Below, piece after piece: positions 12,653-58,798 of a stretch of 64,000 nucleotides of DNA. The notes under the pieces were generated by a model, which saw only the letters and a list, made by a program, of their open reading frames with translations, was not told the origin of the DNA and searched no databases. The stretch's first letter is position 1, and every line of letters begins with the position of its first letter. The position numbers and the translations under genes are program-made. The stretch spans positions 248,001 through 312,000 of the forward strand of contig NZ_JANHDH010000003.1 in NCBI RefSeq assembly GCF_026616195.1. The letters run 5' to 3'. Source of the DNA: Haloarchaeobius amylolyticus (GTDB lineage: Archaea > Halobacteriota > Halobacteria > Halobacteriales > Natrialbaceae).

Positions 12653-13075
12653 ATGTACGACAGGATTCTGGTCGCGACCGACGGCAGCGCCGACGCGAAC
12701 CGCGCCGCGACACACGCGCTCGAACAGGCCGAACGACACGGTGCGGAGCTGCACGCGCTGTTCGTGGTCGACACCGACCGGTACGCCGAACCCGCACTGA
12801 GCAGCACCGAACTCGACACCACCGAGATCGAGGACTGGGGCGGTGAGCAACTCGACGAGATCGTCGACCGCGGTGAACAGCTCGGTCTCACCGTGACGAC
12901 CCGGTGCTGTCACGGCAAGCCCTACGTCGAGATCATCAACTACGCCGACGAGGTCGACGCCGACCTCATCGTCCTCGGCTACCACGGACACTCCCACACC
13001 GAGACCGAACAGATCGGGAGCGTGACCGACCGCGTCGTCCAGAACGCGGGACGACCGGTACTGATCGCAACCTGA
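12653..13075 (+). CDS. Universal stress protein (UspA family)
   Basis: The 140-residue single Usp domain begins MYDRILVATDGSADANRA and ends with the nucleotide-binding signature LGYHGHSHTETEQIGSVTDRVV, in which GxHGH and GS contact ATP in relatives. It is one of three Usp genes in this window, and lies beside a cation/proton antiporter, a frequent haloarchaeal pairing. The specific role is unknown. Confidence 0.9.
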   Translation: MYDRILVATDGSADANRAATHALEQAERHGAELHALFVVDTDRYAEPALSSTELDTTEIEDWGGEQLDEIVDRGEQLGLTVTTRCCHGKPYVEIINYADEVDADLIVLGYHGHSHTETEQIGSVTDRVVQNAGRPVLIAT

Positions 13076-13162
13076 GCCGGTAGCCGTTCCGGCTCTGGGT
13101 AGCCGGGACGAACCACCTCGCCGTCACGGTCGGTAGAGACACTCCTCTGGACTGCTCCGTTC

Positions 13163-15025
13163 TCAGGTGGTACAGTAGTCGATAGCGTCACGAACTGCCT
13201 CCCGCCGGCCGATGAACGTGAGGTGGTCGCCCTTCTCGATGCGGTCACTCGGATGGGGGAGCTGGTCGGATTCGTCCCGGCTCACCAGCGCCAGGTGACA
13301 GCCCTCGGGTAGTTCCTCCGTCAACCGGGACACGGACTTCCCGGCGTGTTCGTCGGAGGTGACCTCGATCTCCTGGACGTCGCCGTCCTCGTCGAGTTCC
13401 CGCATCCACTGGGAGATCCGGGGTCGCTCGATGACGTTGTCCATCGACCATGCGACGGACATCGACGTGGAGATTGGCTCGATGTCGATGTCGTCGAACG
13501 CGTCGAGGTTCGACGGCTCGTTCACCCGGGCGACGACGTCCTCGACGCCGTACGTGTTCCGCGCGATCTGCCCGACGAGGAGGTTCACGTCGTCGTCTTT
13601 CGTGGCTATCGCGACGGTCTTCGCGTTGTCGATGCCGGCCCGTTCCAGGACCTGCTGGTCGGTTCCGTCGCCACGGTGCACCGTGTGCCCCTCTCGACGC
13701 AGGTCCTCGACCACCGCCTGGTCCTGCTCGATGATGACGACCTCCTCGCCTCGATTCTCCAGCCGGTCGGCCAGTTCTTTCCCGACTCGTCCACCGCCGA
13801 CGATGAGCACACGCATCGGTATCACGTCGAGCACCTGTGCGATGTGACGGGCCAGCCCCCCTTCAAACACGACGGTCACGAAGATGACGAGGAAGACCGT
13901 ACCGACCAGCGTCGTCGCCGCGGGCGAGGGCTGGAGTTCGAGCGCGAACAGCGTCGCGACGCTCGCAGGGATGATGCCGCGGGGCCCGAGCGCACTGACG
14001 AACAGTCGTTCGCGGAGGGTCAGTCGGTCGCCGACGGTGCTGAGGAGTACGGCAGCCGGGCGGATGATGGCCGCGATGGCGACCACGGCGACGAGGCCGC
14101 CGAGACCCAGGTCGAGCAGGTCCTGGAGCGAGAGCAGGGACGCGAGCGTGATGAACACGAACGAGATGACGAGGACGGAGACGTCGCCCTTGAACTGCTC
14201 GATGGTGTCCCGGTAGGGGATGTCCGTGTTGCCGAGGATGAACCCGCCGGTGGCGACGGCCGCGATGCCAGCCTCCGACGCGCCGAACCGGGCGCCGAGG
14301 ACCTCCGCGATGCCGTACATCGCGAGCGAGGAGACGAGGACCATGAGGCGAGCGTTCTGGGGTGCGTTCTCGACCGCCTGTCTCCCGTGTCGCAGGACGT
14401 ACCACAGCACCCCTGCGACCGCGGCGCCGACCAGCAGTCCGAGGCCGAACCGGAGGACGAACTCCCAGACGAGCGTCGGCAGCCCCCGTGACTCCAGCAG
14501 GACGTACTCGAACGTGACGATGGCGAGGATGGCCGCCGTCACGTCGTTGACGACGCCCTCCGTCTCGAGCGTCGACGCGACCCGTTCGCGGACGGGGACG
14601 ACGCTCATGATGGGGGTGATGACGGTCGGGCCGGTCGCGACGAGGAGCGACCCGATGAGGAACGCGAGGTCCCACGGCGTCCCGAGGACGTAATGGACGA
14701 CCACGGCCGTCCCGACGAGCGACCCGACCGCACCGAGGGTGACCAGCCGGATGGTCTCGCGCTGTGCGGACCGGATACGGTCGAGGTGCAGGTGGAACGC
14801 CCCCTCGAACACGATGATCGCCACGGCCAGCCCGACGATGGCCTGGAGCGCGTCCCCGAAGATAGAGGGCGTGATGAGGCCGAGCCCCTCCGGCCCGACG
14901 AGGACGCCAGAGAGGATGAGGAAGACGACGCTCGGAATCCGCAGTCGGTCCGCGAGGACCTGTGCGGCGACGCCCAGGCCCATGATGGTCACGACGATCT
15001 GGATGAGGTCGACTGCAGCACTCAT
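13163..15025 (-). CDS. Cation/proton antiporter with C-terminal TrkA-N and TrkA-C domains
   Basis: A 620-residue protein. Residues 1-390 contain about a dozen hydrophobic helices of the CPA (Na+/H+ or K+/H+) exchanger fold. A TrkA-N Rossmann domain follows (VLIVGGGRVGKELADRLENRG, then HTVHRGDGTDQ), and a TrkA-C domain closes the protein (EIEVTSDEHAGKSVSRL, then DHLTFIGR). The RCK tail would gate exchange with NAD(H) or another nucleotide. The ATG at 15025 is chosen over an upstream one at 15058 because it directly precedes the first helix. Ion specificity cannot be read from the sequence. Confidence 0.87.
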   Translation of the reverse strand: MSAAVDLIQIVVTIMGLGVAAQVLADRLRIPSVVFLILSGVLVGPEGLGLITPSIFGDALQAIVGLAVAIIVFEGAFHLHLDRIRSAQRETIRLVTLGAVGSLVGTAVVVHYVLGTPWDLAFLIGSLLVATGPTVITPIMSVVPVRERVASTLETEGVVNDVTAAILAIVTFEYVLLESRGLPTLVWEFVLRFGLGLLVGAAVAGVLWYVLRHGRQAVENAPQNARLMVLVSSLAMYGIAEVLGARFGASEAGIAAVATGGFILGNTDIPYRDTIEQFKGDVSVLVISFVFITLASLLSLQDLLDLGLGGLVAVVAIAAIIRPAAVLLSTVGDRLTLRERLFVSALGPRGIIPASVATLFALELQPSPAATTLVGTVFLVIFVTVVFEGGLARHIAQVLDVIPMRVLIVGGGRVGKELADRLENRGEEVVIIEQDQAVVEDLRREGHTVHRGDGTDQQVLERAGIDNAKTVAIATKDDDVNLLVGQIARNTYGVEDVVARVNEPSNLDAFDDIDIEPISTSMSVAWSMDNVIERPRISQWMRELDEDGDVQEIEVTSDEHAGKSVSRLTEELPEGCHLALVSRDESDQLPHPSDRIEKGDHLTFIGRREAVRDAIDYCTT

Positions 15026-15131
15026 GATGGGGGGCCCTTGAAAGACGAGAAACCGCACTCAGAAGCGTTCATGAGACTCGTGGCGTCGGCTACGGTGGTC
15101 CCACTCCTAAAGGTGCCTATCACGGCCAATC

Positions 15132-15308
15132 TTGGCCGACTGTGGCGGGACAGGCCAAGGCTCCCACCAGGAGTTCGCGAAGCAGTACGAGCAACACGTC
15201 GTGGCCACCCCACCCGAGACGGAGAACTGCCGTCACTGTGGGTGGCGACGCCGTACCGACGGCGCGACGATGGTGACGTACCACGAGTACCGGGGCGAAT
15301 CCCTCTGA
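15132..15308 (+). pseudogene. Possible remnant of a small zinc-ribbon protein
   Basis: A frame ending at 15306-15308 encodes about 58 residues, with DCGGTGQGSHQEFAKQYEQH near its beginning, ENCRHCGWRRRTDG in the middle and YHEYRGESL at the end. The two Cys-rich spots look like half-sites of a zinc ribbon. No good ATG is present (an in-frame TTG at 15132 and a stop at 15108-15110), so a decayed or partial gene is more likely than a live one. Confidence 0.35.
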
Positions 15309-15566
15309 CGACCAGTGAGATAATAAACCGAGTGCAGTTGCTATATTACACTGAGTGAGTATCTGTTGTATTATTGGACGATTTATCCCCTCAAACCGGC
15401 TCAGATGAGATTCTACTGGTCGCTATTTTGTTTATTCGCCAACTGAATCTAGCATATAAAGAAGCGCGAGAAACAGCTCTACAGTTTTCTACCTGGCCAC
15501 CTGGAACGTGTCTTGATAATCTCGGACCCGGAATCGGAGAAGCCGGGGGAGCGAACCCGGGGCCAG
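15309..15566. other. AT-richer intergenic segment
   Basis: The stretch from about 15318 to 15490 is distinctly lower in GC than the surrounding genes. I see no gene with haloarchaeal codon use; a 66-codon frame from 15374 is not convincing. It may be a scar of past insertion. Confidence 0.4.
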
Positions 15567-16730
15567 CTACCTGAGTGCCAGCCAGCCCACTGCCACACCG
15601 GTCAGCAGGAAACAGCCGATGAGGCTCGCGAACGCGACGGAGTAATCGAACTCGGTCGCGACGAAGCCGACGTACGACGGCCCGAGGCTACCGAGCGCGA
15701 AGTACGCCGTCCGGAGGGCGCCGAGGTCGCCGCCGACCGTGTCGCCGGCCAGCTGGCCCACGATGTGGACGTAGATGACGGGCCAGAACGTGGTGAGCCC
15801 GACCGCGAAGACGGCGAGGCCGACGACGACCAGGATTCGGGTGTCGGTGGCCACGAGCGTACTGAGCCCGACCACACTGAGGGCGGTGGTGGCTGCCGCG
15901 ACGTGCAGATGCGACCAGCGGTCGCCGAGTGCGCCAGCGACGGGCGTCGTCACCGTGCCGACGAGGAAGAGCCCGGCGAACCCGATGGTCGCCCAGAACT
16001 CCGAGAAGCCCTTCTCGAGGTGGAGGAACGTCGGGAGGAAGCTCGCGGTCCCCTGCCAGGCGAACAGCGTCAGGGCGGTGACCGCGATGAGTACGCCGGA
16101 CTGGGGAGTCCTGACGAGGCGCCTCGCCGTTTTCCGCAGTTCGAGGTCCACCGTCGAGACGGTGAGGGCCTGGCGGTTGATTCGGTGAAGGACGGCCATC
16201 ACGACACACAGCAACAGCGCGATGGGGAGGAACGCGGCCCGCCAGGTGGTGAAGGTGAGCACGACGGCTGCGAGTCCGGCAGAGAGGGTGCTCCCGAGGT
16301 TGACGGCAGCGTCCCTGATGCCGAAGGCGCGCCCGCGCTGCTCGTCGAAGAGGTCGCCGAGGAGGACCATCCCCGCGGGCTCGAAGGTGCCGTACCCCGC
16401 GCCGACGAGGGCCAAGCCCAGGACGAACTGCGGGAACGTGTTCGAGACGGCCAGCGAGAGGAACCCCGCGACGAGGAGCACCTGACTCAGGAGGAGGACG
16501 ACGGTCGAGGGCAGGTGGTCGGCGTACCGGCCGCCCGGATACTGGACCAGCGCGTTGGTCGCCCACAGGACGGAGATGGAGACGCCCGCGGTCGCAGGCG
16601 AGATGTCGAACGTCTCGATGATGGACGGCAACAACGGCGCGACGACGAGCACACCGGAGAGGGTGACGACGAGGCCGAGTGCGTGGAGCGATAGCTGGCG
16701 GCCGGCGTACCCCGAGATGACGTCTCTCAT
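15567..16730 (-). CDS. MFS transporter
   Basis: The 387-residue protein has about twelve hydrophobic helices and the MFS loop motif GGRYADHLPS after helix 2. It is a secondary carrier of the cytoplasmic membrane; the substrate is not evident. The ATG at 16730 is preferred to an in-frame codon at 16787 because it leads directly into MRDVISGYAGRQLSLHALG, and a TATA-like TATTCAAAC lies about 35 bases upstream. It is divergent from the EamA-type gene. Confidence 0.82.
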   Translation of the reverse strand: MRDVISGYAGRQLSLHALGLVVTLSGVLVVAPLLPSIIETFDISPATAGVSISVLWATNALVQYPGGRYADHLPSTVVLLLSQVLLVAGFLSLAVSNTFPQFVLGLALVGAGYGTFEPAGMVLLGDLFDEQRGRAFGIRDAAVNLGSTLSAGLAAVVLTFTTWRAAFLPIALLLCVVMAVLHRINRQALTVSTVDLELRKTARRLVRTPQSGVLIAVTALTLFAWQGTASFLPTFLHLEKGFSEFWATIGFAGLFLVGTVTTPVAGALGDRWSHLHVAAATTALSVVGLSTLVATDTRILVVVGLAVFAVGLTTFWPVIYVHIVGQLAGDTVGGDLGALRTAYFALGSLGPSYVGFVATEFDYSVAFASLIGCFLLTGVAVGWLALR

Positions 16731-16852
16731 GTCGGTCGTTGTGGAACGGTCGCAGGGTGGGTTTGAATAGCTTCGGTGTCCGGCCAAGTATTGCTGTCCC
16801 GGCCCCGGGGGAAATCGTTATTCGGCTCGCCCGAGTGTACCACGTACACGCA

Positions 16853-17269
16853 ATGTCGAAAGCGACAGTACTCTTCGCAGGCGCAGCCATGGTACTCTAC
16901 GCGGGGTGGGCGTTCTTCGCGAAACTCGCCACGCGAACGGTCCCGGCAGAACAGGCAGTGGTCTACACCTACGTCGCGGGGCTGGTCGCCGTCGGCGGCT
17001 ACATCCTGCTCGACTCCGGCGGGTCGGTCACGGTCACCACCGACGGCTTCTGGCTCGCGGCGGTCAGCGGCCTGTGTCTGGGCCTCGGGACGCTCGCGTA
17101 CTACACCGCCCTGACCGACGGGTCGGTCGGTATCGCCACCAGCATCAGTGGGATGTACCTCCTGTTCGCGACCCTCCTCGGGGTCGTCTTCCTGAACGAG
17201 TCGCTCGGGAAGGCCAACATCGCGGGCATCGGGTTCGCGGTCGTGGCGGTGGTCCTCCTCGCGCAGTGA
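16853..17269 (+). CDS. EamA-type (drug/metabolite transporter) small membrane protein
   Basis: A 138-residue protein with four to five hydrophobic helices matching a single EamA repeat (LFAGAAMVLYAGWAFFAKLA at the N-terminus; LLGVVFLNESLGKANIAGIG near the end). Full DMT carriers have two repeats, so this half-size protein probably works as a dimer, as small multidrug-type carriers do. The ATG is about 30 bases after a TTATT element. Confidence 0.78.
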   Translation: MSKATVLFAGAAMVLYAGWAFFAKLATRTVPAEQAVVYTYVAGLVAVGGYILLDSGGSVTVTTDGFWLAAVSGLCLGLGTLAYYTALTDGSVGIATSISGMYLLFATLLGVVFLNESLGKANIAGIGFAVVAVVLLAQ

Positions 17270-17325
17270 CCAGCCGGTGGGAACACACCCGAAGTTCTTA
17301 CTGCCGGTACCACGAACGACCGAGT

Positions 17326-17754
17326 ATGGTGGTCCTGGCAGCCATCGACGATTCCGAGAGAGCATCGCGCGTCGCCGACGAAGCCGCGAAACTCGCGGCC
17401 GCGTTCGACGACGAACTCCACCTCGTCCACGTGTTCAACCGGTCCAGACTCGTCGACGTCCTGGAGGTCACCCTCGACGACGAGGACCCGGCCGAGAACT
17501 ACGAGGTCCAGCAGGAGGCAGACCGCATCGCGGCCGCCGCCACCGCCGACGTGGAGTACCCGGCGGAGACGGTCGTGCGGGTCGGTGACCCCGTCACGAA
17601 CGTCGTCGAGTACGCCGAATCGGTCGACGCCCGGTACATCGTCATCGGGGGCCGCAAGCGCACCCCGACGGGCAAGGCGCTGTTCGGCAGCGTCACGCAG
17701 AAGGTCATGTTGAACGCCGACCGACCGGTGGTCAACGCCCCGGGCCAGAACTAG
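17326..17754 (+). CDS. Universal stress protein (UspA family)
   Basis: The 142-residue Usp domain starts MVVLAAIDDSERASRVADEA and ends with IGGRKRTPTGKALFGSVTQKVM, the G-rich ATP-binding motif. It closely resembles the Usp at 46520 in this motif (GRKRTP, GKALFGS), so the two may be paralogues. It stands alone between the EamA gene and the BCCT operon. Confidence 0.88.
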   Translation: MVVLAAIDDSERASRVADEAAKLAAAFDDELHLVHVFNRSRLVDVLEVTLDDEDPAENYEVQQEADRIAAAATADVEYPAETVVRVGDPVTNVVEYAESVDARYIVIGGRKRTPTGKALFGSVTQKVMLNADRPVVNAPGQN

Positions 17755-17884
17755 AACCGACCTCCGCTTCTCGCGCGCACAGGAGGAAAAGCCGTAGTAG
17801 AGAATAGAGAACGCTGCAAGCGCGACTGCGAGAGTCCGCGCGTACTGCTCGCGTCGACGGTCGCAGCAGTCGGTACCGACGGAT

Positions 17885-19522
17885 CTAATCTTCGGAGAGC
17901 ATCGCCGAGTCCGAGGGACTGCGGCGCGGGCTGGCGGTGCCAGTCCCACTCTCGTCGCTGTCCGTGTCGCGCTCCGTGAGCAACACCGGATGGTGTTCCT
18001 CGAGTTCCTTCGTCAGGCCGACGAAGCACAGCAGGCAGATGATGGCCACCGGCAGGCCGACGAGGACGATCATGTCCTTGAGCGCCGGCAGGCCACCCAC
18101 GATGAGCAGCAGGGAGGTCAACAGCCCGACGAGGGTCCCCCAGGTGACGCGGTTCAGGGTCGAGGGGTCCTCGTCACCGCCGGTGGTGAACATCGCGAGG
18201 CTGAGCGTGGTCGAGTCGACCGTGGTGATGAGGAACGTCAGCACCAGCAGCAGGTAGAGCGCGGAGAAGACCCCGCCGAGTCCGAAGGGGACGATCTGCT
18301 CGAACAGCGGGAAGCCGGCGACCTCGGTGCCGTACTCGCCGACGGCGCCGAGGATGTCGGCCTTGCCGTTGTGCTGGACCCACAGCGAGGAGCCCCCCAT
18401 GACGATGAACCACGGGAACGAGGCGGCCGAGGTACCGGCGAGCCCGGCGAAGACGACCTGCCGGATGGTGCGGCCGCGGCTGATGCGGGCCATGAAGATG
18501 CCGATCATCGGCGCGAACGAGAACCACCAGGCCCAGTAGAAGACCGTCCAGCCGCCGACCCAGGAGGCGCCGTTGGCCACGTTCGCGTAGAGGCTCATCT
18601 CGATGAACTCGTTGACGTAGCCGCCGACAGCCTCCGTCCCGAGGTTCATCAGGAAGCCGGTCGGGCCGGCCACGAACGCGACGAACAGGAGGAGCGTGAA
18701 CAGGGCCATGTTGAAGTGCGAGATGCGGCGGATGCCCTTGTCCACACCGAGTGCGGCGGAGATGGTGAACCCGATGGTGAGCCCGGTCGTCACCAGCAGG
18801 ATGCCGAGGTCACCGAACTGCATCCCCCAGTTGTAGGTCAACCCGGTCAGGAACTGGGTCACGACGAAGCCGAGCGAGACCGCGACCCCACCGACCGAGA
18901 GGACGACGATGCCCATGTCGAGCGGCTTGACCCACCAGCTGTCGAGGTTCTCGACGCCGACGAAGGGCGCGAAGATGGTCGAGGGCTTGATGGGTGCGCC
19001 CCGACGGTGCACGAAGTACGCGATGGTCACGCCCACGATGAGGTAGGCCGACCACGGCGAGATACCCCAGTGCAGCAGGGTGTACTGGATGGACCCGGGC
19101 ATCACCCCGGCCGACTTCGCACTCGCGCCGAGGAACGGCGGGGCCGAGGCGTAGTGGAAGAGCGCCTCTGCGGGGCCGAAGAAGACCAGCCCGGTCGAGA
19201 GCCCGGCGGAGAACAGCATCGCGAAGAACGCGAAGAACGAGTACTCCGGGTCCTCGTCCTCGCCGCCGAGTTTGATCTTCCCCCACGGGCCGAGCAGTAG
19301 CCACAGGCAGAACGCCACGCAGATGAACATGATGCCGAGGTACACCCAGCTGATGTTCTTCCACAGCCACGTGTTCACCTCGGTCAAGGTCTCTGCGGCG
19401 GCTGACGGCCACATGCCGATGATGGCGATCGCGATGACTGTCAGTATCGCCCCACCCCAGAAGACCGACGGTTCGATTTCGTCCCTGAACTCCCTGAACA
19501 TGCTGTCTGGTTCGGTGCTCAT
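17885..19522 (-). CDS. BCCT family transporter (betaine/carnitine/choline type)
   Basis: A 545-residue membrane protein of the BCCT fold. Features include the start DEIEPSVFWGGAIL, then GLSTGLVFFGPAEALFHY, LHWGISPWSAY, and VFYWAWWFSFAPMIGIFMARISRGRT, the conserved helix 8 Trp/Gly-rich signature. BCCT carriers import quaternary ammonium compounds, either as osmolytes or as carbon/nitrogen sources. It is the last gene of an operon: 13 bases separate it from the Rieske gene. The catabolic neighbours favour uptake of a nutrient. Confidence 0.9.
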   Translation of the reverse strand: MSTEPDSMFREFRDEIEPSVFWGGAILTVIAIAIIGMWPSAAAETLTEVNTWLWKNISWVYLGIMFICVAFCLWLLLGPWGKIKLGGEDEDPEYSFFAFFAMLFSAGLSTGLVFFGPAEALFHYASAPPFLGASAKSAGVMPGSIQYTLLHWGISPWSAYLIVGVTIAYFVHRRGAPIKPSTIFAPFVGVENLDSWWVKPLDMGIVVLSVGGVAVSLGFVVTQFLTGLTYNWGMQFGDLGILLVTTGLTIGFTISAALGVDKGIRRISHFNMALFTLLLFVAFVAGPTGFLMNLGTEAVGGYVNEFIEMSLYANVANGASWVGGWTVFYWAWWFSFAPMIGIFMARISRGRTIRQVVFAGLAGTSAASFPWFIVMGGSSLWVQHNGKADILGAVGEYGTEVAGFPLFEQIVPFGLGGVFSALYLLLVLTFLITTVDSTTLSLAMFTTGGDEDPSTLNRVTWGTLVGLLTSLLLIVGGLPALKDMIVLVGLPVAIICLLCFVGLTKELEEHHPVLLTERDTDSDESGTGTASPRRSPSDSAMLSED

Positions 19523-19535
19523 GTGTTCTATCCTC

Positions 19536-19994
19536 TTAGAGGTACACCACGACGGTCTCCTGTTCGACCTCCACGTCGTAGGTCTCGACCGGTGGTTCGT
19601 CTCCCTCCAGTTCGACGGAGCAGCCGTCACAGCCGCTGCCGTCGGTCGCTACGTCCTCCGGCTCCTCGACCGTCGCCTCGAACGACTTCGCCTTCACCTT
19701 GTGCGGGTTGAAGATGGACTCGCCCGACTTGATGTCGAACTCCCACCCGTGCCACGGGCACCGGACGATCTCGCCCGGGCGCTCGTACTCGAACTCGCCA
19801 GCCTTGTCCGAGGTCGTCGTGCCCGTGACCGGGCCCTCACAGAGCGGGGCGCGCTGGTGCGGGCAGTCGTTCTTGAGCGCGAAGTACTCGCCGTCGACGT
19901 TGAAGATGCCGATGGAGAAGCCGTCGAGTTCCGTGATGAGACGCTCGCCCTGCCCGATGTCGTCGGCCGGGCACACCTCGAAGCGCTTCTCCAT
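19536..19994 (-). CDS. Stand-alone Rieske [2Fe-2S] ferredoxin-like protein
   Basis: A 152-residue single-domain Rieske protein. C44-P-H46 and C79-PW-H82 supply the two Cys and two His ligands of the [2Fe-2S] cluster. There is no oxygenase catalytic domain, so it is probably a soluble electron carrier for a partner oxygenase. It lies 2 bases after the amidohydrolase gene and 13 before the BCCT gene, so the three are one transcript. No oxygenase alpha subunit is present in the window. A tail segment (SGCDGCS, residues about 118-124) adds extra cysteines. Confidence 0.87.
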   Translation of the reverse strand: MEKRFEVCPADDIGQGERLITELDGFSIGIFNVDGEYFALKNDCPHQRAPLCEGPVTGTTTSDKAGEFEYERPGEIVRCPWHGWEFDIKSGESIFNPHKVKAKSFEATVEEPEDVATDGSGCDGCSVELEGDEPPVETYDVEVEQETVVVYL

Positions 19995-19996
19995 CG

Positions 19997-21127
19997 TCAG
20001 TCCTCACCCTGCTCGACCGGGAGCTTGTACAGTTCGGCCGCGTTCTCGTACTTGATGGCACGTTCCATGTCGTCGTCCATCGGTGGGAGCCCCCAGGTCG
20101 GGTCGTCGCCGTCCCAGTGGGGGTAGTCGCTGGCGAAGATGAGGACCTCGTCGGCGTGCATCATCTCCAGGATCTGGTTGTGGTGCTCGGGCTTCTCGGG
20201 CTCCTCGATGGGCTGGCTGGCGAACCAGACGTTCTCGCGGATGTACTTGCTGGGCTTCTTCTCCAGCCACGGCACCTGCGAGCGCAGGCCCTTCCAGTTC
20301 TTGTCGAGGCGCCACATGAAGTGCGGGAGCCAGCCGTAGCCGCCCTCGATGAAGGCAAAGCGCAGGTCGGGGTACTCGACGAACACGCCCTCGGTGACGA
20401 GGCTCGCGAGCTGGCCCATGTAGTAGGCGCCGAGGAGCGTGTGCCACTCGATGTAGCTGTTCGGATGGCCCGCCCCGGTCGGCGGGTTGGCGACGCCGTG
20501 GCCCTCCGAGAAGGGGTGGACGGCGACCGCGAGGTCCATCTCCTCGGCCGCCTCGTAGATGGGCCAGTAGCGCGGGCGACCGTAGGGGTCCTCGGAGCCG
20601 CCCGGCATGAGGACCTGCTTGACCTGCGGATGGTCGCCGTACTCGCGAATCTGCTCCGCGGAGGCCTCGGGGGCTTTCGGCGCCGCGTAGATGGAGCCGA
20701 TGAACCGGTCGTCGACCGTGAGGCACTCCTCGATGAGCCACTGGTTGTAGGCGTCGGCCAGCGCCGCGGCGTACTGCCGGTTCGGGACGGCGCCCAGGTT
20801 GAGCCAGGAGTTGCCGGTGAGGATGGCGTAGTCGATGTCGTACTCGTCGAGGTGGTCCTCGGCGATCTTCTCGAGGTCGGATCCCGGTTTGCCCCCGTCC
20901 TCGGGTTTCTCGTCCTGCCGGAGGAACCCACCCGGGTTGCGATAGAGCAGGGTCGGCGTCACGATACCGTCGCGCTGGTACTGCTCCGGGAGGTACTTGA
21001 TGATCTCCTCGTCGTCCTTCCACCGCTGGTGGATGTCGCAGTCGATGAGCGAGAGCTCGGCCTCGGCGTCCGACTGCTCGCCCACGCGCTGGTGAGGCGT
21101 TGTCATGGTGTCCGGGTTGACGTACAT
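19997..21127 (-). CDS. Amidohydrolase family protein (amidohydrolase-2/ACMSD-like)
   Basis: A 376-residue TIM-barrel hydrolase or decarboxylase. The N-terminal metal motif DCDIH, a central AVHPFSEGH segment, IEGGYGWLPHFMWRLD, and the C-terminal metal aspartate in FASDYPHWDGD match amidohydrolase-2 enzymes such as aminocarboxymuconate-semialdehyde decarboxylase. The substrate is unknown. It is first in the operon with the Rieske and BCCT genes. An alternative ATG at 21106 has a TATA-like element (TGTTTATGTA) at good spacing; both starts remain possible. Confidence 0.85.
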   Translation of the reverse strand: MYVNPDTMTTPHQRVGEQSDAEAELSLIDCDIHQRWKDDEEIIKYLPEQYQRDGIVTPTLLYRNPGGFLRQDEKPEDGGKPGSDLEKIAEDHLDEYDIDYAILTGNSWLNLGAVPNRQYAAALADAYNQWLIEECLTVDDRFIGSIYAAPKAPEASAEQIREYGDHPQVKQVLMPGGSEDPYGRPRYWPIYEAAEEMDLAVAVHPFSEGHGVANPPTGAGHPNSYIEWHTLLGAYYMGQLASLVTEGVFVEYPDLRFAFIEGGYGWLPHFMWRLDKNWKGLRSQVPWLEKKPSKYIRENVWFASQPIEEPEKPEHHNQILEMMHADEVLIFASDYPHWDGDDPTWGLPPMDDDMERAIKYENAAELYKLPVEQGED

Positions 21128-21479
21128 GGTTGTTGTACATAAACATTATCCAATCTGAGAATAATTTACTAGAATAGTATACTTACTCGGGTGGCTAATT
21201 TCCGCCCCTGGTGTCTTCTAACCGCCGTTCGCCGATTCATTAAAAGAAATCTGATATTCGACAATCGCGAATGTCGCTGGGCCGCAGATCGGTGGACATG
21301 TGCGTCGAGGTTGGGGTGAATCTCTCGTGTCCGTCGCTATATTCTCGGCTCAGCGATGACGAACATCCAGAAACGGGTCGATGCCGTGGTACCCCGGCCA
21401 GACAGGATGGAGGCAGAGACACCCCCATCGATTCGACAATTCCGAATCTATTAGTGGATGGTATGTCATTGTATGTCTC
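21128..21479. promoter_or_regulatory. Divergent control region: amidohydrolase operon / IclR gene
   Basis: This 352-base region has no gene. AT-rich elements at about 21138-21168 are candidate TATA boxes for the minus-strand operon. For the IclR gene, CTATTAG lies about 30 bases before the ATG, and a 7-base direct repeat GTATGTC (21461-21467 and 21471-21477) sits just upstream of the start. Confidence 0.4.
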
Positions 21480-22247
21480 ATGGGTGACGAGGCAAACCGG
21501 CCGATCAAATCGCTGTTGACCATGGAGGAGCTGGTCGAGGTCCTGGACGAGACGGGGGGTGCGCGGGTGACCGAGGTCGCCGAGGAACTCGACAGGCCAC
21601 AGAGCGTGGTCCACGACTACCTCAGCACGCTCCGCCAGCTCGGCTACGTAGTCAAGGAGGGGTCGGCGTACCGGCTCAGCCTGCGCTTCCTCGAACTGGG
21701 GTCGAGAGAGCGGTCGCGGAACCCCCTCTACGAGATCGCGAAGCCCGAGATAGAACGCCTCGCGGACGAGTCGAGCAGCGAACTCGTCTCGCTCGTGGTC
21801 GAGGAGGACGGGCAGGCCGTCTGCCTCGACGCCGCCTGGAGCAGCCAGAGCATCCAGTACAACACCTTCCCGGGGATGCACTTCCACCTGCACTCCTCGG
21901 CCACGGGCAAGGCGATGCTCGCGCACATGCCCGAGGACCACGTCGAGGAGATACTCGACCGCCACGGGATGCCCGAGCGGACCCCGAACACCATCACCGA
22001 CCGCGAGGAACTGTTCGACCAGTTCGAGACCATCCGGGAGCGCGGATTGAGCTACGAGCGCGAGGAGTACAAGCTCGGGATGATGTCCTACGCGGCCCCG
22101 ATAACCGACGACGAGGAGGACGTCCTCGGTGCCGTCAGCGTCTCGGGACCGGCCCACCGGATGCGCGAGGACGAGGTCGAGGCGGAGCTGACGAACAAAC
22201 TGCTCTCGGCCATCAACATCATCGAACTGAACTACGGCGCGCGCTGA
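21480..22247 (+). CDS. IclR family transcriptional regulator
   Basis: A 255-residue protein with an N-terminal winged helix (about residues 12-75; ARVTEVAEELDRPQSVVHDYLSTL) and a C-terminal IclR ligand domain (about 85-250) containing HSSATGKAMLAHMP and the VSGPAHRM strand. It is divergent from the amidohydrolase/Rieske/BCCT operon and upstream of a convergent saccharopine-dehydrogenase-like gene, so it probably controls one of these in response to a small organic acid. The effector is unknown. Confidence 0.9.
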   Translation: MGDEANRPIKSLLTMEELVEVLDETGGARVTEVAEELDRPQSVVHDYLSTLRQLGYVVKEGSAYRLSLRFLELGSRERSRNPLYEIAKPEIERLADESSSELVSLVVEEDGQAVCLDAAWSSQSIQYNTFPGMHFHLHSSATGKAMLAHMPEDHVEEILDRHGMPERTPNTITDREELFDQFETIRERGLSYEREEYKLGMMSYAAPITDDEEDVLGAVSVSGPAHRMREDEVEAELTNKLLSAINIIELNYGAR

Positions 22248-22359
22248 CCGGCGAGCAGCGACCTGCAGGCACCGATTCGCCCGCGAGAAGGGGGACAGAC
22301 TCGTTCTGGAGACGATTCGACCGCGTCTACGGTTCCACAGCCGACTCGACTGCGCGAGC

Positions 22360-23583
22360 TTACTTCGCCGGCGTCGTCTCTGCGACCAGTTCGAAGCCGC
22401 GCTCCTCCATGGCCTCGAAGTACCGTTCGGGGGAGACGCCACTGGTCTCGGTGGTGAAGATGCCTGTGCCGGTGGATTCGCCGGCCGCCATGAGCTGGAG
22501 CGTGACCGACAGCGGGACGCCGACGTAGCAGCCGTACTCCCGCATCAGCGTGATGTCGTTCCCGTCGAAGAACGGGAAGGGCTGGGTCATGTGGTAGACC
22601 GACCGAGCGCCGCGGTCGCCCGCCGAGCCGACGACCTCCGTCGAGAGGATGGTCTGGGGCGTCCACTCGGTCTCCGGCGAGAGTTCGCTCGGGTCGCGCC
22701 ACTCGTCCTCGGCGCCCTCCTGGATGATGGCCTGCTGCATGGCCTCCAGTGGGTCGACCTCGGTCCCGTTCACCTCGACGGGGTCCGCGTCGAACAATCC
22801 GGCGTTCAGGAGCGTCTCCTCGTAGTCCTGCCACTCGGGGTGCCAGACACCGCGGGTGACGATGCGCTCGACACCCGTCTCCTGGGCGATGTCCGACCAC
22901 GGGAACGTGATGGACTCGGGGTGGGTGATGACGTACGTCTCCTGCTGGCCGACCGGGTCCGGGAAGTCGAACTCCTTGCGCAGGCCGAACGGCGGCAGGT
23001 CCTTCGTGACCTCGCCGTCCTGCCAGACCACGCGTTCGTCGACGTTCGGGTCGTGCTCGTAGGTGACCGTGTCGGTGAGGCCGGCGGTCGTCTGCGTGAG
23101 CAGCCGCCACATGCCCCAGTAGAAGTTCACCTCGCTCACGTCGTCCATGTCCTGGCACGCGAGCATGCCGAGCATGATGGTGCTGACGACGCCGCCATTA
23201 CAGAACCACAGCGCACAGCCCGCCTCCTCGAACTCGTCGGAGCGGGCGAGGATGCGGTCGAAGTCGAACGCGTTCAGGTCGACGCCCGTGATGTCACCGA
23301 CCTCCACGATGGCGTCGAGCACGTTGTCCTCGAACTGGTAGGGGAGCCCGTTCACGACGTAGTCCGCGTCCTCGAGCACCCGGACGAGGTCCTCGGTCGA
23401 GGTCGCGTCGACGTCCGTGAAGGTGACCCGCTCGTCGTCGACCACGTCGAGCAACTTGCGTGCGTTCTCCTCGTCGACGTCCGCGACGACGATCTCGTCG
23501 AATCCGCTCGTCCTGTGCAGGTCGTACACACAGGACGAGGTCATTGCGCCAGAACCGCCTAGTACCACTACTGTTCCGCTCAT
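22360..23583 (-). CDS. Saccharopine dehydrogenase-like NAD(P)-binding oxidoreductase
   Basis: A 407-residue protein. The N-terminal Rossmann fold starts TVVVLGGSGAMTSSCVYDL, followed by VVADVDEENARKL and NGLPYQFEDNVLDA; the rest matches the Sacchrp_dh catalytic/dimer region (ALWFCNGGVVSTIMLG). Family members act on amino acids at an imine carbon, but this one lies outside any lysine pathway, so another amino or keto acid is likely. A TATA-like ACTTTTGTG lies about 33 bases before the ATG. It is divergent from the aldehyde dehydrogenase. Confidence 0.78.
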   Translation of the reverse strand: MSGTVVVLGGSGAMTSSCVYDLHRTSGFDEIVVADVDEENARKLLDVVDDERVTFTDVDATSTEDLVRVLEDADYVVNGLPYQFEDNVLDAIVEVGDITGVDLNAFDFDRILARSDEFEEAGCALWFCNGGVVSTIMLGMLACQDMDDVSEVNFYWGMWRLLTQTTAGLTDTVTYEHDPNVDERVVWQDGEVTKDLPPFGLRKEFDFPDPVGQQETYVITHPESITFPWSDIAQETGVERIVTRGVWHPEWQDYEETLLNAGLFDADPVEVNGTEVDPLEAMQQAIIQEGAEDEWRDPSELSPETEWTPQTILSTEVVGSAGDRGARSVYHMTQPFPFFDGNDITLMREYGCYVGVPLSVTLQLMAAGESTGTGIFTTETSGVSPERYFEAMEERGFELVAETTPAK

Positions 23584-23720
23584 GTCTCATCGACTCCGTT
23601 TCGACCCCTGACACAAAAGTCTTGGCCAAATTGAAAGCCACATTACCAGAATTCTGGACGGAGAGCGTTTCACGCGCCCGTTCTCGTGTGCGCGTGTGGT
23701 CGCGCAAGGAAGCCCCTGCC

Positions 23721-23747
23721 CCCTTACCACAAGGGATAGACATTTAT
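23721..23747 (+). promoter_or_regulatory. Aldehyde dehydrogenase promoter with CCCTT/AAGGG inverted repeat
   Basis: ATTTATG (about 23740-23746) lies some 27-33 bases upstream of the ATG at 23773. Just before it is a perfect 5-base inverted repeat, CCCTT-ACCAC-AAGGG (23721-23735), placed where a regulator could help or block TBP/TFB. Confidence 0.4.
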
Positions 23748-23772
23748 GCGAGAAACGAGCAGTGTTGGCTGC

Positions 23773-25224
23773 ATGCCAGAGACAGTCGGCAACTTCGTCA
23801 GCGGTGAGTGGACAGTATCGGAGACGGGTGAGACCTTCGTGGTCGAGAACCCGGCCGACCCGGACGACGTGGTCGCGCACTTCCAGCAGTCGAGCGCGGC
23901 CGACACCGAAGCGGCCATCGAGGCGGCCGCCGACGCCCAGGCCGAGTGGGCGGACATGCCCGCACCGGACCGCGGCCGCATCCTCACCCGCACCGCACAG
24001 GAGATCGAGAACCGCCAGGAGGAACTGACCGAGACGCTCGTCCGTGAGGAGGGCAAGGCCCGCCCCGAGGCCGCGGGCGAGGTCCAGCGCGCCGTCGACA
24101 TCTTCTACTACTACGCCGAGAAGGCGCGCGACCTCGGCGGCGACGTGAAGGCCGCGAGTGGCCGGGACACGAACCTCTACACCGTCGGGGAGCCCCTCGG
24201 CGTCGCCGGGCTCATCACGCCGTGGAACTACCCCATCGCCATCCCGGCGTGGAAGCTCGCGCCCGCCCTCGTCACGGGGAACACCGTGGTCATCAAGCCC
24301 GCCTCGCAGGCGCCCAACGTGGCGCGCAAGCTCGTCGAGTGCCTGGAGGCGGCCGGCATCCCGGACGGCGTGGTGAACTTCGTGACCGGTCCCGGCAGCG
24401 AGGTCGGCACCGAACTCACCACGAACGAGTCGGTCGACGCAATCTCGTTCACCGGAAGCGGCAACGTCGGTGACGTCGTCTACCAGCAGGCCGCCGAGGA
24501 CCAGAAGCGCGTTCAACTGGAGATGGGCGGGAAGAACCCGACCCTCGTCACCGAGAACGCGGACGTCGAGGAAGCCGCCGAGGTCGTCGGGAGCGGTGCC
24601 TTCGGCGTCACCGGGCAGGCGTGTACCGCCACCTCTCGGGCCATCGTCCACGAGTCGGTGTACGACGCGTTCGTGGCAGAGCTCGTGGAGTACGCCGAGT
24701 CCCTCTCTATCGGCCCCGGCCTCGACGACTACGACATGGGCCCGCAGGTCAGTGCGAGCGAACTCGACGGCACCCTCACGTACATCGACGTCGGCACCGA
24801 GGAGGGTGCGACCCTCGAGACTGGCGGGGCGGCGCTCGACGACGGCGAGTACGACTCGGGTCACTTCGTCGAGCCGACCGTCTTCTCGGACGTCTCCTCC
24901 GACATGCGCATCGCCCAGGAGGAGATCTTCGGCCCGGTCGTGGGCGTCATCCCCGTCTCGGACTTCGAGGAGGGCGTCGCGGTCGCCAACGACACGCAGT
25001 ACGGCCTCGCGGCCAGCGTCGTCACCGACGACCTGACCGAGGCGAACCGCTTCGTCGACGAGGTCGAGGCGGGCGTCGTCAAGGTGAACGAGAAGACGAC
25101 CGGCCTCGAACTCCACGTCCCCTTCGGCGGGATGAAGGCCTCCTCCAGCGAGACCTACCGCGAACAGGGCGACGCCGGCCTCGACTTCTTCACCACGACG
25201 AAGACCGTCTACGCCAACTACTGA
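23773..25224 (+). CDS. NAD(P)-dependent aldehyde dehydrogenase
   Basis: A 483-residue enzyme that oxidises an aldehyde to a carboxylate. Catalytic residues are visible: N152 in TPWNYP, K175 in VIKPAS, E250 in LEMGGKNP, and the nucleophile C284 in GQACTATSR. The family resemblance is to 2-oxoglutarate semialdehyde/2,5-dioxovalerate or succinate semialdehyde dehydrogenases, but specificity cannot be fixed. The ATG at 23773 is chosen over one at 23746 because of the TATA spacing. It is convergent with the IclR gene at 25264, a probable regulator. Confidence 0.9.
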   Translation: MPETVGNFVSGEWTVSETGETFVVENPADPDDVVAHFQQSSAADTEAAIEAAADAQAEWADMPAPDRGRILTRTAQEIENRQEELTETLVREEGKARPEAAGEVQRAVDIFYYYAEKARDLGGDVKAASGRDTNLYTVGEPLGVAGLITPWNYPIAIPAWKLAPALVTGNTVVIKPASQAPNVARKLVECLEAAGIPDGVVNFVTGPGSEVGTELTTNESVDAISFTGSGNVGDVVYQQAAEDQKRVQLEMGGKNPTLVTENADVEEAAEVVGSGAFGVTGQACTATSRAIVHESVYDAFVAELVEYAESLSIGPGLDDYDMGPQVSASELDGTLTYIDVGTEEGATLETGGAALDDGEYDSGHFVEPTVFSDVSSDMRIAQEEIFGPVVGVIPVSDFEEGVAVANDTQYGLAASVVTDDLTEANRFVDEVEAGVVKVNEKTTGLELHVPFGGMKASSSETYREQGDAGLDFFTTTKTVYANY

Positions 25225-25263
25225 CCCGGCCGACCACCCTGTTCGGTCACGTCGAACAGGTTC

Positions 25264-26028
25264 TCAGTACTGCTTCAGGTTTATCTCGACGAGGTTCGCG
25301 GCGCGTCGGAGCAACTCGGGGAGTTCCTCGCGGTAGCGTTCGCCCGACAGTCGCGTCGCCGGGCCCGAGACGCTGATGGCACCGAGGACCTCCCCCTCCG
25401 GGCCGCGAACGGGCGCCCCCACACAGCGTAGTCCCTCCCCGTATTCCTCGTCGTCGAACGCGACCCCGCGTTCCCGGACCTCGGCCAGCGTCTCGAAGAG
25501 CGTCTCCTCGTCGGTGATGGTCTGGTCGGTGTGGGCCGGGAGGCCGTGCTGGTCCAGTATCTCCGCCACGCGCTCGCGTGGCATGTGCGCGAGCATCGAC
25601 TTCCCCGTCGCGCTACAGTGCAACTGGTGGACGTCGCCGGCGTCGGTCGAGAACTGGATGGTCTGGTCGCCCTGGGTACGGTAGAGGTAGACGCCACGAC
25701 CCGCCTCCTCGACCGCGAGGTTGGCGAGTTCGTTGGTCTCGCGCGCCAGGTCGTCCACGTGCGGGCGTGCGACGCTGTAGATACCCGTCTGGGTGCGGAC
25801 GCGCTCGCCGAGCTGGAGGAACCGGAGACTCAGCCGGTAGCGCCCGTCGTCCGCCACGACGTACCCGTTCTCCCGGAGGGTCGCGAGGTGGCCGTGGACC
25901 GTGCTCTTCGAGACGTCGACCTGCTCTGCGATCTCCGTCACGCCGGCCTCGCCGAGGTCCTCGACGACCTCGACGATGCTCAACAGCGTTTCGTCGCTTC
26001 GAATCGTGCCGGGCGTGGAGTCGGTCAT
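25264..26028 (-). CDS. IclR family transcriptional regulator
   Basis: The 254-residue protein has a winged helix (about residues 14-72; VTEIAEQVDVSKSTVHGHLATL) and an IclR effector domain with HCSATGKSMLAHMP and VSGPATRLSGERY. The ATG at 26028 has a minus-strand CTATTAC about 35 bases upstream. It faces the aldehyde dehydrogenase end to end and is a likely regulator of that gene or its neighbours; the ligand is unknown. Confidence 0.9.
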   Translation of the reverse strand: MTDSTPGTIRSDETLLSIVEVVEDLGEAGVTEIAEQVDVSKSTVHGHLATLRENGYVVADDGRYRLSLRFLQLGERVRTQTGIYSVARPHVDDLARETNELANLAVEEAGRGVYLYRTQGDQTIQFSTDAGDVHQLHCSATGKSMLAHMPRERVAEILDQHGLPAHTDQTITDEETLFETLAEVRERGVAFDDEEYGEGLRCVGAPVRGPEGEVLGAISVSGPATRLSGERYREELPELLRRAANLVEINLKQY

Positions 26029-26339
26029 GCTGTCAGGGACGACGTGACGGACCGTAATAGGTGGTCGGCTTTTCCTCACGCTCGTTCGCTGTGGTCGAAT
26101 CCGGGTCAGCGGGGTGCTCGGAGAGGAGACGGGGTCTCAGACGTGAGGGCAACTGCGTGTCCTTCCCAGGAGTGTTCGATGCTGCGGAACAGCCCGCGTT
26201 CGACGCGTCACTGCCGGTACGGGAGGTGAGACAGTGTCGTGTTACAGTCATATGCTCGTAACAGCAGAGGATGGCCGAGGGCAGGTCACGGCCCGGACCC
26301 GAGGCAACGTTTTACCGTCTGCTGGGTGAAGATAGCGAC
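26029..26339. promoter_or_regulatory. Divergent control region: IclR / orphan rdfA
   Basis: No gene is seen in this 311-base stretch. It has a TATA-like CTATTAC (minus strand, about 26058-26066) for the IclR gene, and GTTTTACC (about 26309-26316) located 24-31 bases before the rdfA ATG. Confidence 0.4.
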
Positions 26340-26966
26340 ATGGAGGAAGACACGCCGACGGACGCCGGTGGGGGCGGCCGTGGCAAGGTCGCCAGGCTCA
26401 TCGCGCAGTACGGGCTCGCCCCCGAGGTCGGCGAAGACATGGTCGAGCAGTGGACGGCAGAGGGCGACCAGCGCACGAGCCTCCGTGACCTCGCCGACCA
26501 GTTCAACCGCCGGCTGCTGCGAGCCGCACTCGAGAGCGACGGTGAACACGTGCGCGATAGTCAGGTCGAGTCGTACTACCGGCGGTTACGCCACGCCGAC
26601 CTCACCGCCGGGGAGCGGGTCGAACTCGAACAGGAACTGGCGGGTCGCGGTGTCGATATCGACCAGCTCGAGACCGATTTCGTCTCGTACCAGTCCATCC
26701 GGACGTTCGTCAAGAACCGCGGCGCAGAGTACGTCCAGGCAGGTGACGAGGCCCAGTTAGCGCGAGACGCCGAGAGCATCGAACGGCTCCGCTCCCGGCT
26801 GCAGTCGGTGACGACGGACCGCCTCGACCGCCTCGACCGCACTGACCGCATCGAACTGGGCGAGTACTCCCTGCTCGTCGACGTGCAGGTGTTCTGTGAG
26901 GACTGCGGGACGCAGTTCGACGTCGTCGACCTGCTCGAGAACGGTGGCTGTGCGTGCGATTCCTAA
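26340..26966 (+). CDS. rdfA: Rod-determining factor RdfA-like protein (orphan copy)
   Basis: A 208-residue protein of the haloarchaeal RdfA family, needed in Haloferax relatives for rod-shaped cells. Family marks are the N-terminal KVARLIAQYGL, the SLRDLADQFNRRLL segment, VDIDQLETDFVSYQSIRTFV, and the C-terminal zinc-like end VFCEDCGTQFDVVDLLENGGCAC. It aligns throughout with the protein at 49588-50205 in this window but has no SMC-related gene beside it. The N-terminus is extended and glycine-rich. Confidence 0.82.
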   Translation: MEEDTPTDAGGGGRGKVARLIAQYGLAPEVGEDMVEQWTAEGDQRTSLRDLADQFNRRLLRAALESDGEHVRDSQVESYYRRLRHADLTAGERVELEQELAGRGVDIDQLETDFVSYQSIRTFVKNRGAEYVQAGDEAQLARDAESIERLRSRLQSVTTDRLDRLDRTDRIELGEYSLLVDVQVFCEDCGTQFDVVDLLENGGCACDS

Positions 26967-27069
26967 CTCGAACAGGCTCGCGATGGGCATAACAGACGTA
27001 CGCCTGTTAGGGTAGTCGGATTGATTCACGCCAGCAGATCGACCGAGGACGGGACGCGGAAACCGCAGG

Positions 27070-39631: not shown

Positions 39632-39772
39632 GGTCTACCGTAGAACTCGGCCAAGGGAGATTAAATGTTCCCCGGCCCCGGTGTGACGGCGGCTAGCTGA
39701 TACGCCAGTGACTGGTAAATGTTCGGAACCATCCATAACTTTAATACGGTATGTACGGAACAGGGACTGTGT

Positions 39773-40849
39773 ATGCTAGAGTCTGGCGCATTGGTGGTTG
39801 ACGCTGTCGGTCACTGCTTCAACCACACACCCGACAACCACAAGCACCCGCACGCCCAGCGATGGGACGACGAGACCTACGAACTCGGCGCGAAACTCCT
39901 CCCGGACAGCCACGTCCCGTCGGAGGAGGTGTTCTACCGAGACCACTCGCCCGAGGAACTGGCCCGTCTCCTCTTCCTGGAGAGTCAGATCGACTACACG
40001 GTGTACCACTCGCTCCCGCTCGACGACTACTTCCACGACGGGTACGTCTCCCGCGAGAAGGGCTTCGAGTTCTGCGAGCAGAACCCGACACGCACGTCGA
40101 TGTACGTCGACATCAACCCGCTCGAAGACGATGCCGTCGAGCAGGTCCATCACTACGCCTCGAAGGACTTCGTGAAGGGTATCAAGCTCTATCCGTCGCG
40201 CTACCAGAACGGGCACGACCTCTCGCTGCAGCTGAACGAGGAATCGGTCTGGCCCATCCTCGAAGCCGCAGCGGACAGCGACGTCGACACCGTCGCGATG
40301 CACAAGTTCATCCCGTTCGCGACGGCCCCGGTGAAGTACTTCCGGATGGACGACGTCGAGGACGCAGCATCGTCGTTCCGGGACCTCAACTTCGAGATCA
40401 TCCACGCAGGATTCTCGTTCCTCGAAGAGACCGTGTTCGCGATGGCCAGCCACGACAACGTGTACGCGAACCTCGAGAACACGGCCTGCATGGTCAACTC
40501 ACGACCGCGCAAGTTCGCCGAGTCGCTCGGTGAGATGCTGTACTGGGCCGGCCCGGACCGCATCCTCTTCGCCAGCGGCGCGACGGCGCTGCACCCGCAG
40601 CCACCCATCGAAGGGATCTGGAACTTCGAGATGCCGGAGGACCTCCGCGTGAACCAGGACTACCCCGAGGTCACCCAGGAGATCAAGGAGAAGATCCTCG
40701 GCAAGAACGCGCTCCGCCTGCTCGGCGAGGACCCCGAGGAGATCCGCGACCAGATCGAGGGCGACAAGTGGGACCAGCAGCGCCAGGAACTCCGCGAGGC
40801 GGAGGACTTCCCGGCCGCACCGTGGTCCACCTACGAGACCAGCGCATGA
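39773..40849 (+). CDS. Amidohydrolase family protein
   Basis: A 358-residue predicted TIM-barrel amidohydrolase. The N-terminus VDAVGHCFNHTPDNHKHPHAQRW is histidine-rich in the place where the metal motif is expected; GIKLYPSRYQNGHDL, AMHKFIPF, IIHAGFSFLEE and RILFASGATALHP mark later strands. The last motif has SGA where many relatives have SD, so the metal site may be atypical. TATA-like CTTTAATA lies 27-34 bases upstream. The stop overlaps the next start by 4 bases, coupling it to a DUF59 protein. Confidence 0.8.
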   Translation: MLESGALVVDAVGHCFNHTPDNHKHPHAQRWDDETYELGAKLLPDSHVPSEEVFYRDHSPEELARLLFLESQIDYTVYHSLPLDDYFHDGYVSREKGFEFCEQNPTRTSMYVDINPLEDDAVEQVHHYASKDFVKGIKLYPSRYQNGHDLSLQLNEESVWPILEAAADSDVDTVAMHKFIPFATAPVKYFRMDDVEDAASSFRDLNFEIIHAGFSFLEETVFAMASHDNVYANLENTACMVNSRPRKFAESLGEMLYWAGPDRILFASGATALHPQPPIEGIWNFEMPEDLRVNQDYPEVTQEIKEKILGKNALRLLGEDPEEIRDQIEGDKWDQQRQELREAEDFPAAPWSTYETSA

Positions 40850-58795: not shown

Positions 58796-58798
58796 TGT

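Follow-up and report, generated by a model that had tools for sequence, protein, structure and literature searches.

A haloarchaeal gene cassette that joins a probable amidohydrolase-related dinuclear oxygenase and its Rieske neighbor to a BCCT carrier and two dehydrogenase-like enzymes

Gene organization of the locus

The window, meaning the whole 64,000-nucleotide stretch of Haloarchaeobius amylolyticus DNA analyzed here, is haloarchaeal DNA with a GC content of 65%. A check of its ORFs against Pfam showed three consecutive genes on the minus strand, encoding a protein formerly read as an amidohydrolase, a small Rieske protein, and a BCCT carrier. The gaps between them are 2 bases (19995-19996) and 13 bases (19523-19535), and these coordinates bear out the spacings reported in the sequence-only reading; the range 19536-21127 holds the first two genes only, and the BCCT gene lies outside it. 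The BCCT ORF spans 17885-19630(-), but its likely start is the ATG at 19522 (MSTEPDS), with which a start codon or a Met is aligned in seven cassette relatives. An Rfam scan of positions 15000-27000 yielded no family at the gathering score. The features of the locus are listed below, where ARO stands for amidohydrolase-related dinuclear oxygenase, the probable identity of the first gene product.

15567-16787 (-): MFS transporter (PF07690), accessory, kept in several cassettes
16739-17269 (+): half-size EamA transporter (PF00892), accessory, kept in several cassettes
17885-19522 (-): BCCT carrier, 545 aa (PF02028, E = 1.7e-142)
19536-19994 (-): small Rieske [2Fe-2S] protein, 152 aa (PF00355, E = 7.1e-16)
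19997-21127 (-): probable ARO, 376 aa (PF04909 Amidohydro_2, E = 1.8e-34), formerly read as an amidohydrolase
21256-21272 (+): candidate palindromic operator, copy 1, ATTCGACAATCGCGAAT, between the ARO and IclR1 genes
21431-21447 (+): candidate palindromic operator, copy 2, ATTCGACAATTCCGAAT, between the ARO and IclR1 genes
21480-22247 (+): IclR1, divergent regulator (PF01614 and PF09339)
22360-23583 (-): SDH, saccharopine-dehydrogenase-like NAD(P) enzyme, 407 aa (PF03435, E = 3.1e-13)
23773-25224 (+): DVDH, 2,5-dioxovalerate (2-oxoglutarate semialdehyde) dehydrogenase-like aldehyde dehydrogenase (ALDH; NCBIfam NF052305)
25264-26079 (-): IclR2, regulator beside DVDH (PF01614)

Elsewhere in the window, positions 54074-62754 encode a second BCCT carrier, two class III aminotransferases, RidA, a PLP enzyme (PALP), and an M20 peptidase, which may form a cluster for the utilization of diamino acids or ectoine-like compounds. 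Two genes of the aldehyde ferredoxin oxidoreductase family occur at 37136-38809 and 52260-53939.

The "amidohydrolase" is very probably an oxygenase

Enzymes of the amidohydrolase fold that carry a two-metal oxygenase site have been named AROs, and new members were discovered through small Rieske genes located near PF04909 genes (Liu et al. 2024, PMC10811679). When the window protein was searched against the PDB sequences, the best matches were the AROs 8sm7 (E = 3.9e-92), SfbO (8sm6, 1.4e-81), 8sm8 (8.6e-71), and 8sm9 (9.7e-68), followed at 1.9e-56 by AibH2 (6m1w), whereas the best decarboxylase reached only 4.1e-14. Its AlphaFold model (pLDDT 88, pTM 0.88) gave the same picture: ARO entries occupied ranks 1-11 of the fold matches, with VIA Z scores from 50.8 to 34.8 (8sm7, 50.8; SfbO, 49.4; Mn/Fe AibH1H2, 44.5; PtmU3, 34.8), and the first match outside the class was a putative amidohydrolase with a Z score of 32.0.

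The metal ligands of AibH2 are Asp25, His27, His211, Glu265, Asp337, and His340, with Asp342 in the second sphere, and at position 342 only the two-metal members of the family conserve an acidic residue (Hibi et al. 2021, PMC7782822). Residue mapping placed all seven, in the same order, at D31, H33, H204, E261, D334, H337, and D339 of the window protein. These residues are kept in all 17 haloarchaeal ARO-like rows of alignment A1, the window protein included and the second PF04909 protein of the window (AMH2) set aside. They are also kept in 42 of the 42 rows of alignment A5, which is a weaker test because the search patterns used to retrieve those rows already included some of these residues. 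AMH2 is encoded at 39719-40849, about 19 kb from the operon, and is followed by a gene with a FeS_assembly_P domain; it has V, H, and E at the positions of D31, E261, and H337 and is therefore not an ARO. With the PF04909 fold, the six ligands and the acidic second-sphere residue, and an adjacent gene for a protein with the C-x-H...C-x2-H Rieske pattern, the computed properties of the window protein indicate that it is very probably an ARO-type oxygenase, which would bind two redox metals (Mn/Fe or Fe2). Some of the more distant ARO-like places may not encode AROs, the ligands having been compared in 17 rows.

The closest known relatives differ from the window protein in informative ways. SfbO, from Litorilinea aerophila, and 8sm7 ("G. 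y4 TruffO") are the best matches in both sequence and fold and share all the ligands with it. SfbO was itself identified through its Rieske neighbor, and its native substrate is not known (PMC10811679). Its sulfate-binding Arg232 and Arg235 correspond to H229 and L232 in the window ARO, whereas Asn67 and Trp341 are kept; the aligned window position of Tyr280 has no Tyr, and this residue was omitted from the pocket comparison. Because both arginines are replaced, a ligand of the sulfonate type is less likely for the window ARO, and its substrate probably differs from that of SfbO. The sections of PMC10811679 drawn on here do not mention a BCCT carrier, SDH, or DVDH with SfbO. The 2-aminoisobutyrate hydroxylase system AibH1H2-AibG-AibF of Rhodococcus wratislaviensis resembles the window operon in the seven key residues of AibH2, in the Rieske-type partner AibG, and in being a catabolic operon. 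However, AibH2 is 33% identical to the window ARO, and the window operon encodes a single PF04909 protein, so that the two-subunit arrangement of AibH1H2 with its AibH1-like subunit is not found in it; the genome has three further PF04909 places besides AMH2. Nor was an AibF-like reductase found among the scanned cassette genes. PtmU3 of platensimycin biosynthesis has the same fold and the same type of dinuclear site (Z score, 34.8) at 21% identity, but it is a biosynthetic enzyme (PMC7782822), whereas the window ARO is linked to transport and is probably catabolic.

Conserved pairing with a Rieske protein

The Rieske ligands C44-x-H46...C79-x2-H82 are invariant in all 16 aligned sequences. 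In the cassette Rieske proteins (window 19536-19994), a C-terminal loop also contains an additional pair of Cys residues (GCxxC), which is absent from the more distant Rieske relatives in alignment A2.

In a survey of 125 Natrialbaceae genomes, in which ARO and Rieske searches were both run at E = 1e-20, the ARO search found 73 places in 44 genomes and the Rieske search found 53 places in 39 genomes. Almost every Rieske place (51 of 53) had an ARO-like place no more than 1 kb away, and 51 of the 73 ARO-like places had a Rieske place at that distance or less. The pairing was tightest among the closer relatives, with 16 of the 17 ARO-like places of at least 47% identity being Rieske-adjacent, and all but one of the 22 ARO-like places that had no adjacent Rieske gene were at or below 41% identity. 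The same association was seen among the best 79 loci of a comparison with public genomes, mainly from Paenibacillus, Chloroflexota, and Verrucomicrobiota: a Rieske gene lay within 1.5 kb of the ARO gene in 70 loci and at 1.8-1.9 kb in 4, and none was present in 5, 3 of which were near contig ends.

The ARO-Rieske pair is thus a conserved core, and the Rieske protein is likely the electron donor of the ARO. The sequence-only reading had regarded the gene set as unfamiliar, a view that does not apply to this core, because the association, haloarchaea included, has already been published (PMC10401708, PMC10811679). The window ARO fits the description that Powell et al. (2023) give of 555 AibH2-like proteins, which include haloarchaeal members and of which 90% have an adjacent Rieske gene and 40% a permease beside them (PMC10401708); unlike the window cassette, that set has no BCCT carrier, SDH, or DVDH named in the portions of the paper used here. 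The core is therefore a new member of a published class. A paper on vitamin B2 catabolism (PMC12746152) was considered as a further case of ARO-Rieske pairing and rejected, as the enzyme it describes is an ordinary Rieske dioxygenase.

A cassette that recurs across haloarchaeal families

The full cassette, comprising ARO-Rieske-BCCT, the divergent IclR1, DVDH, an IclR2-like gene near DVDH, and SDH, was whole in 10 of the 12 genomes that were fetched with the close ARO clade of the window. These are the genome of the window, three further genomes (G005, G074, and G259), and those of Natrinema gelatinilyticum (G054), Natrinema zhouii (G078), Natronorubrum aibiense (G100), Haladaptatus pallidirubidus, Halorubrum sp. 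CBA1229, and Halorubrum laminariae; five of the six named genomes are plasmid records from a plasmid collection. The co-directional order ARO-Rieske-BCCT recurs in nine other loci and is therefore not a chance arrangement. In the ARO tree, the ten cassettes fell with the two remaining loci (L169 and L170) into one clade of 14 rows with a support of 100/100. L169 and L170 keep the ARO, the Rieske gene, an IclR1-like gene, and SDH, but no BCCT or DVDH gene was found in their fetched stretches of 16 and 20 kb. In 10 of the 12 close-clade loci, IclR1 is the immediate, divergently oriented neighbor of the ARO; in L169 and L170 it lies beyond SDH, less than 4 kb from the ARO. The trio named in the sequence-only reading thus does stay together in close relatives. 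The proposal of a single operon made there is supported, as is a catabolic route whose substrate is probably a betaine-like amine; nothing in the data pointed to the aromatic-amine option of that reading. As a description of the set, however, the trio left out SDH, DVDH, and the IclR genes.

In L170, a Halostella variant (12910-20000), the ARO operon lies beside a gene for an S15 (X-Pro dipeptidyl-peptidase-like) protein, with no BCCT gene there, and apparent genes for a dipeptide-type ABC importer occur nearby in both L169 and L170. On pHTUR02 of Haloterrigena turkmenica (L058, 9001-10121), SDH is in pieces with Usp and EamA neighbors, apparently as a remnant of the cassette. Large plasmids carry the cassette at five loci in at least three families (Natrialbaceae, Haladaptataceae, and Haloferacaceae), and the AROs of Halorubrum branch from within those of Natrialbaceae, which suggests that the cassette has spread horizontally. 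Searches of a library of open PMC papers found no description of the BCCT-SDH-DVDH cassette or its palindromes, and no paper on SDH with an amidohydrolase and a BCCT carrier or on a haloarchaeal Rieske protein with a BCCT carrier.

A palindrome occurs twice between the ARO and IclR1. Its pattern, RTTCGAYAANNNCGAAY, was drawn after viewing the window and the sequences of relatives; in the 4.6-Mb genome, it has two matches, both in the ARO-IclR1 intergenic region, and the reversed control has none. The palindrome is present twice at this site in all ten full cassettes, copies that are not independent because the cassettes are related; one cassette has a third copy elsewhere, and L170 has a single copy upstream of the ARO. 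A set of 34 further haloarchaeal loci, 268,134 bases in all, contained no match, and the remaining loci overall gave 28 matches in 1.82 Mb, a count that is not a clean control because it includes extra copies of the cassette locus and AT-richer bacteria. The strict form ATTCGN7CGAAT, with at most one mismatch, occurs 8 times in the window against 1.23 expected; the two exact matches are both between the ARO and IclR1, and the other six are elsewhere in the window. The paired palindromes are likely a candidate operator of IclR1, which may bind both of them.

The two dehydrogenase-like proteins could be assigned to different degrees. SDH passes the PF03435 threshold (50.6 bits against 25.1) and falls short of that for PF16653 (28.5 against 31), so that it lacks the two-domain signature of saccharopine dehydrogenase proper. 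Searches of PDB with SDH and an SDH profile gave weak matches, the best of which were entries named saccharopine dehydrogenase, and a structure prediction from four sequences had a pLDDT of 44, with the Rossmann part alone being usable. DVDH passes NF052305, the model for haloarchaeal 2,5-dioxovalerate dehydrogenase, with 860 bits against a cutoff of 750, and the closest other ALDH in the genome is 42% identical to it. Nine of the ten ALDHs tested near SDH, that of the window included, pass this cutoff; the ALDH of L170, 37% identical to the window DVDH, does not.

SDH is present in all 12 close-clade genomes. It occurs in 7 of the 125 family genomes, six times with the cassette and once in pieces, and, in a sample of 391 genomes of the class, in 14. 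Six of these 14 have the full cassette and two have SDH and the ARO but no BCCT gene. Three (loci L165-L167) have SDH, DVDH, and a BCCT carrier of 45-47% identity; their only ARO-Rieske pair is a distant one and lies several kilobases from these genes (the ARO of this pair is cut off in L166). Of the remainder, one has SDH and BCCT without the ARO (L171), one has an N-terminally shortened SDH alone (L172), and one has SDH in pieces. SDH is thus found without a close ARO in L057, L165-L167, L171, and L172. In Halococcus dombrowskii, 8 bases separate SDH from a DVDH-type ALDH, and the fetched 19 kb contain no ARO. Accordingly, SDH and DVDH may serve a route independent of the ARO, and they resemble a module that can receive input from an ARO.

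A stronger version of this idea is that SDH and DVDH form a separate pathway that merely shares the neighborhood and a type of regulator, the steps downstream of ARO-Rieske-BCCT being encoded elsewhere. It overlaps the other readings, and we regard it as doubtful, although it deserves to be taken seriously. The occurrence of SDH with DVDH in the absence of a close ARO (L057 and L165-L167), the shortened SDH standing alone in L172, and the restriction of the palindrome in the window genome to the ARO-IclR1 region, with none before SDH, are consistent with it. However, the presence of SDH in all 12 fetched genomes with the close ARO clade argues against it. So does the gene order in five of the ten cassettes, where DVDH comes immediately after IclR1 in the same orientation and could therefore share the palindrome-bearing promoter.

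The BCCT carrier and the class of substrate

The carrier clearly belongs to the BCCT family (PF02028, 475.8 bits against a cutoff of 27), but it scored 402 bits against the cutoff of 650 of the glycine betaine equivalog NF047988. Its PDB relatives are carriers of trimethylamine, choline, betaine, and carnitine, together with DddT, a carrier of the sulfonium compound DMSP. All eight aligned cassette carriers have the motifs AGLSTG and WWFSF; the motif corresponding to the former is GMGIG in the trimethylamine carrier and GIGID in the choline carriers, each with a third Trp in its box. The GMGIG motif is linked to betaine binding. The cassette carrier lacks both this motif and the third Trp, and because it also falls below the equivalog cutoff, its substrate may not be a betaine.

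The neighboring clade provides the best hint that the substrate is betaine-like. In all six loci L042-L047, which represent the sister ARO clade and two near relatives (four of the six are in the ARO tree), a gene for an OpuAC-type ABC importer of the glycine-betaine family lies 1.3-3.2 kb from the ARO, so that two unrelated importer families with one substrate class adjoin sister oxygenases. On this basis, the BCCT carrier would import a betaine-like substrate. A second link with uptake of the glycine-betaine type was observed in L165 (285-6382), and also in L166 and L167, where a distant ARO-like gene (31%) and a Rieske gene accompany an OpuAC-type ABC importer. A literature search on homarine as a possible substrate found no useful papers, and one on the breakdown of proline betaine by haloarchaea gave a single genome paper.

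The alternative that the ARO and its Rieske donor are real but act on something other than a betaine, with a divergent BCCT carrier respecified for, e.g., a sulfonium compound, a carboxylate, or a plain amino acid, appears unlikely, but it has several points in its favor. AGLSTG and WWFSF differ from the motifs of the aligned trimethylamine and choline carriers; DddT is among the PDB relatives; and dipeptide-type ABC genes lie near the AROs of L169 and L170, with the S15 hydrolase gene in L170. Moreover, a plain amino acid is the substrate of AibH2 (PMC7782822). Against this stand the OpuAC importers of the sister clade, found at six of six loci and belonging to an unrelated family with the same substrate class.

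Proposed route and its significance

Two further explanations concern the core itself. That the first gene encodes a conventional hydrolase or decarboxylase of PF04909, unconnected with the Rieske protein encoded next to it, would agree with the domain name, as PF04909 includes such enzymes (PMC10811679), but this is highly improbable given the complete set of dinuclear ligands with the acidic residue typical of dinuclear members, the rank of AROs far above decarboxylases by both sequence and fold, and the Rieske linkage in most relatives. The idea of the sequence-only reading that the Rieske ferredoxin lacks an oxygenase and serves one encoded elsewhere is scarcely credible here: such service is common for Rieske ferredoxins (PMC10811679), but the genome (listed completeness, 99.99%), which has six PF00355 matches, has no PF00848 (Ring_hydroxyl_A) match at E = 0.01, i.e., no catalytic subunit of a Rieske non-heme oxygenase system, although the same search, run as a control on 14 reference genomes, recovered the family in 4 of them; an oxygenase in an unassembled part of the genome, or one missed by the model, would be the exception. 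Because the "amidohydrolase" is very probably the oxygenase, the puzzle of the lone Rieske protein dissolves.

The explanation that we favor, and consider probable as a whole, is that the cassette combines an ARO monooxygenase and its Rieske donor with the import of a betaine-like compound and downstream steps by SDH and DVDH, under the control of IclR1. The association of the oxygenase with a BCCT carrier, a dehydrogenase, and an aldehyde dehydrogenase points to a route for the breakdown of such a compound. The BCCT carrier would take up an N-alkylated, zwitterionic substrate, and the Rieske protein would pass electrons to the ARO from a reductase encoded elsewhere, none having been found among the scanned cassette genes. 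The two-metal site would then activate O2 and hydroxylate a C-H bond, which we would guess to be adjacent to nitrogen, leading to N-dealkylation or ring opening; hydroxylation beside nitrogen is plausible, as SfbO strips N-alkyl groups from test substrates (PMC10811679). More speculatively, the SDH-like enzyme might act on the amine product, and DVDH might oxidize an aldehyde such that the carbon enters at 2-oxoglutarate or a homologue, a guess based on the nine of ten ALDHs near SDH that pass the 2,5-dioxovalerate cutoff. IclR1 would govern the operon through the paired operator.

A more specific version, to which we give little weight, is that this would be the first ARO dedicated to a quaternary-amine osmolyte, with an Mn/Fe enzyme of the amidohydrolase fold taking the role that Rieske oxygenases have toward betaines in bacteria. 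A betaine of the proline or hydroxyproline type, for example, might be opened or demethylated by the ARO, after which the SDH-like enzyme might oxidize the N-alkyl amino acid and 2,5-dioxovalerate might be converted to 2-oxoglutarate.

The native substrates of uncharacterized AROs have been left open, and gene neighborhoods have given few clues (PMC10401708, PMC10811679). The conserved cassette offers testable clues to the native substrate of an ARO, namely, the class of its importer, the regulator and its candidate operator, and two enzymes that likely act downstream. Haloarchaea are also a group with workable genetics. If the favored explanation is true, it would correct the habit of databases of labeling such oxygenases "amidohydrolase."
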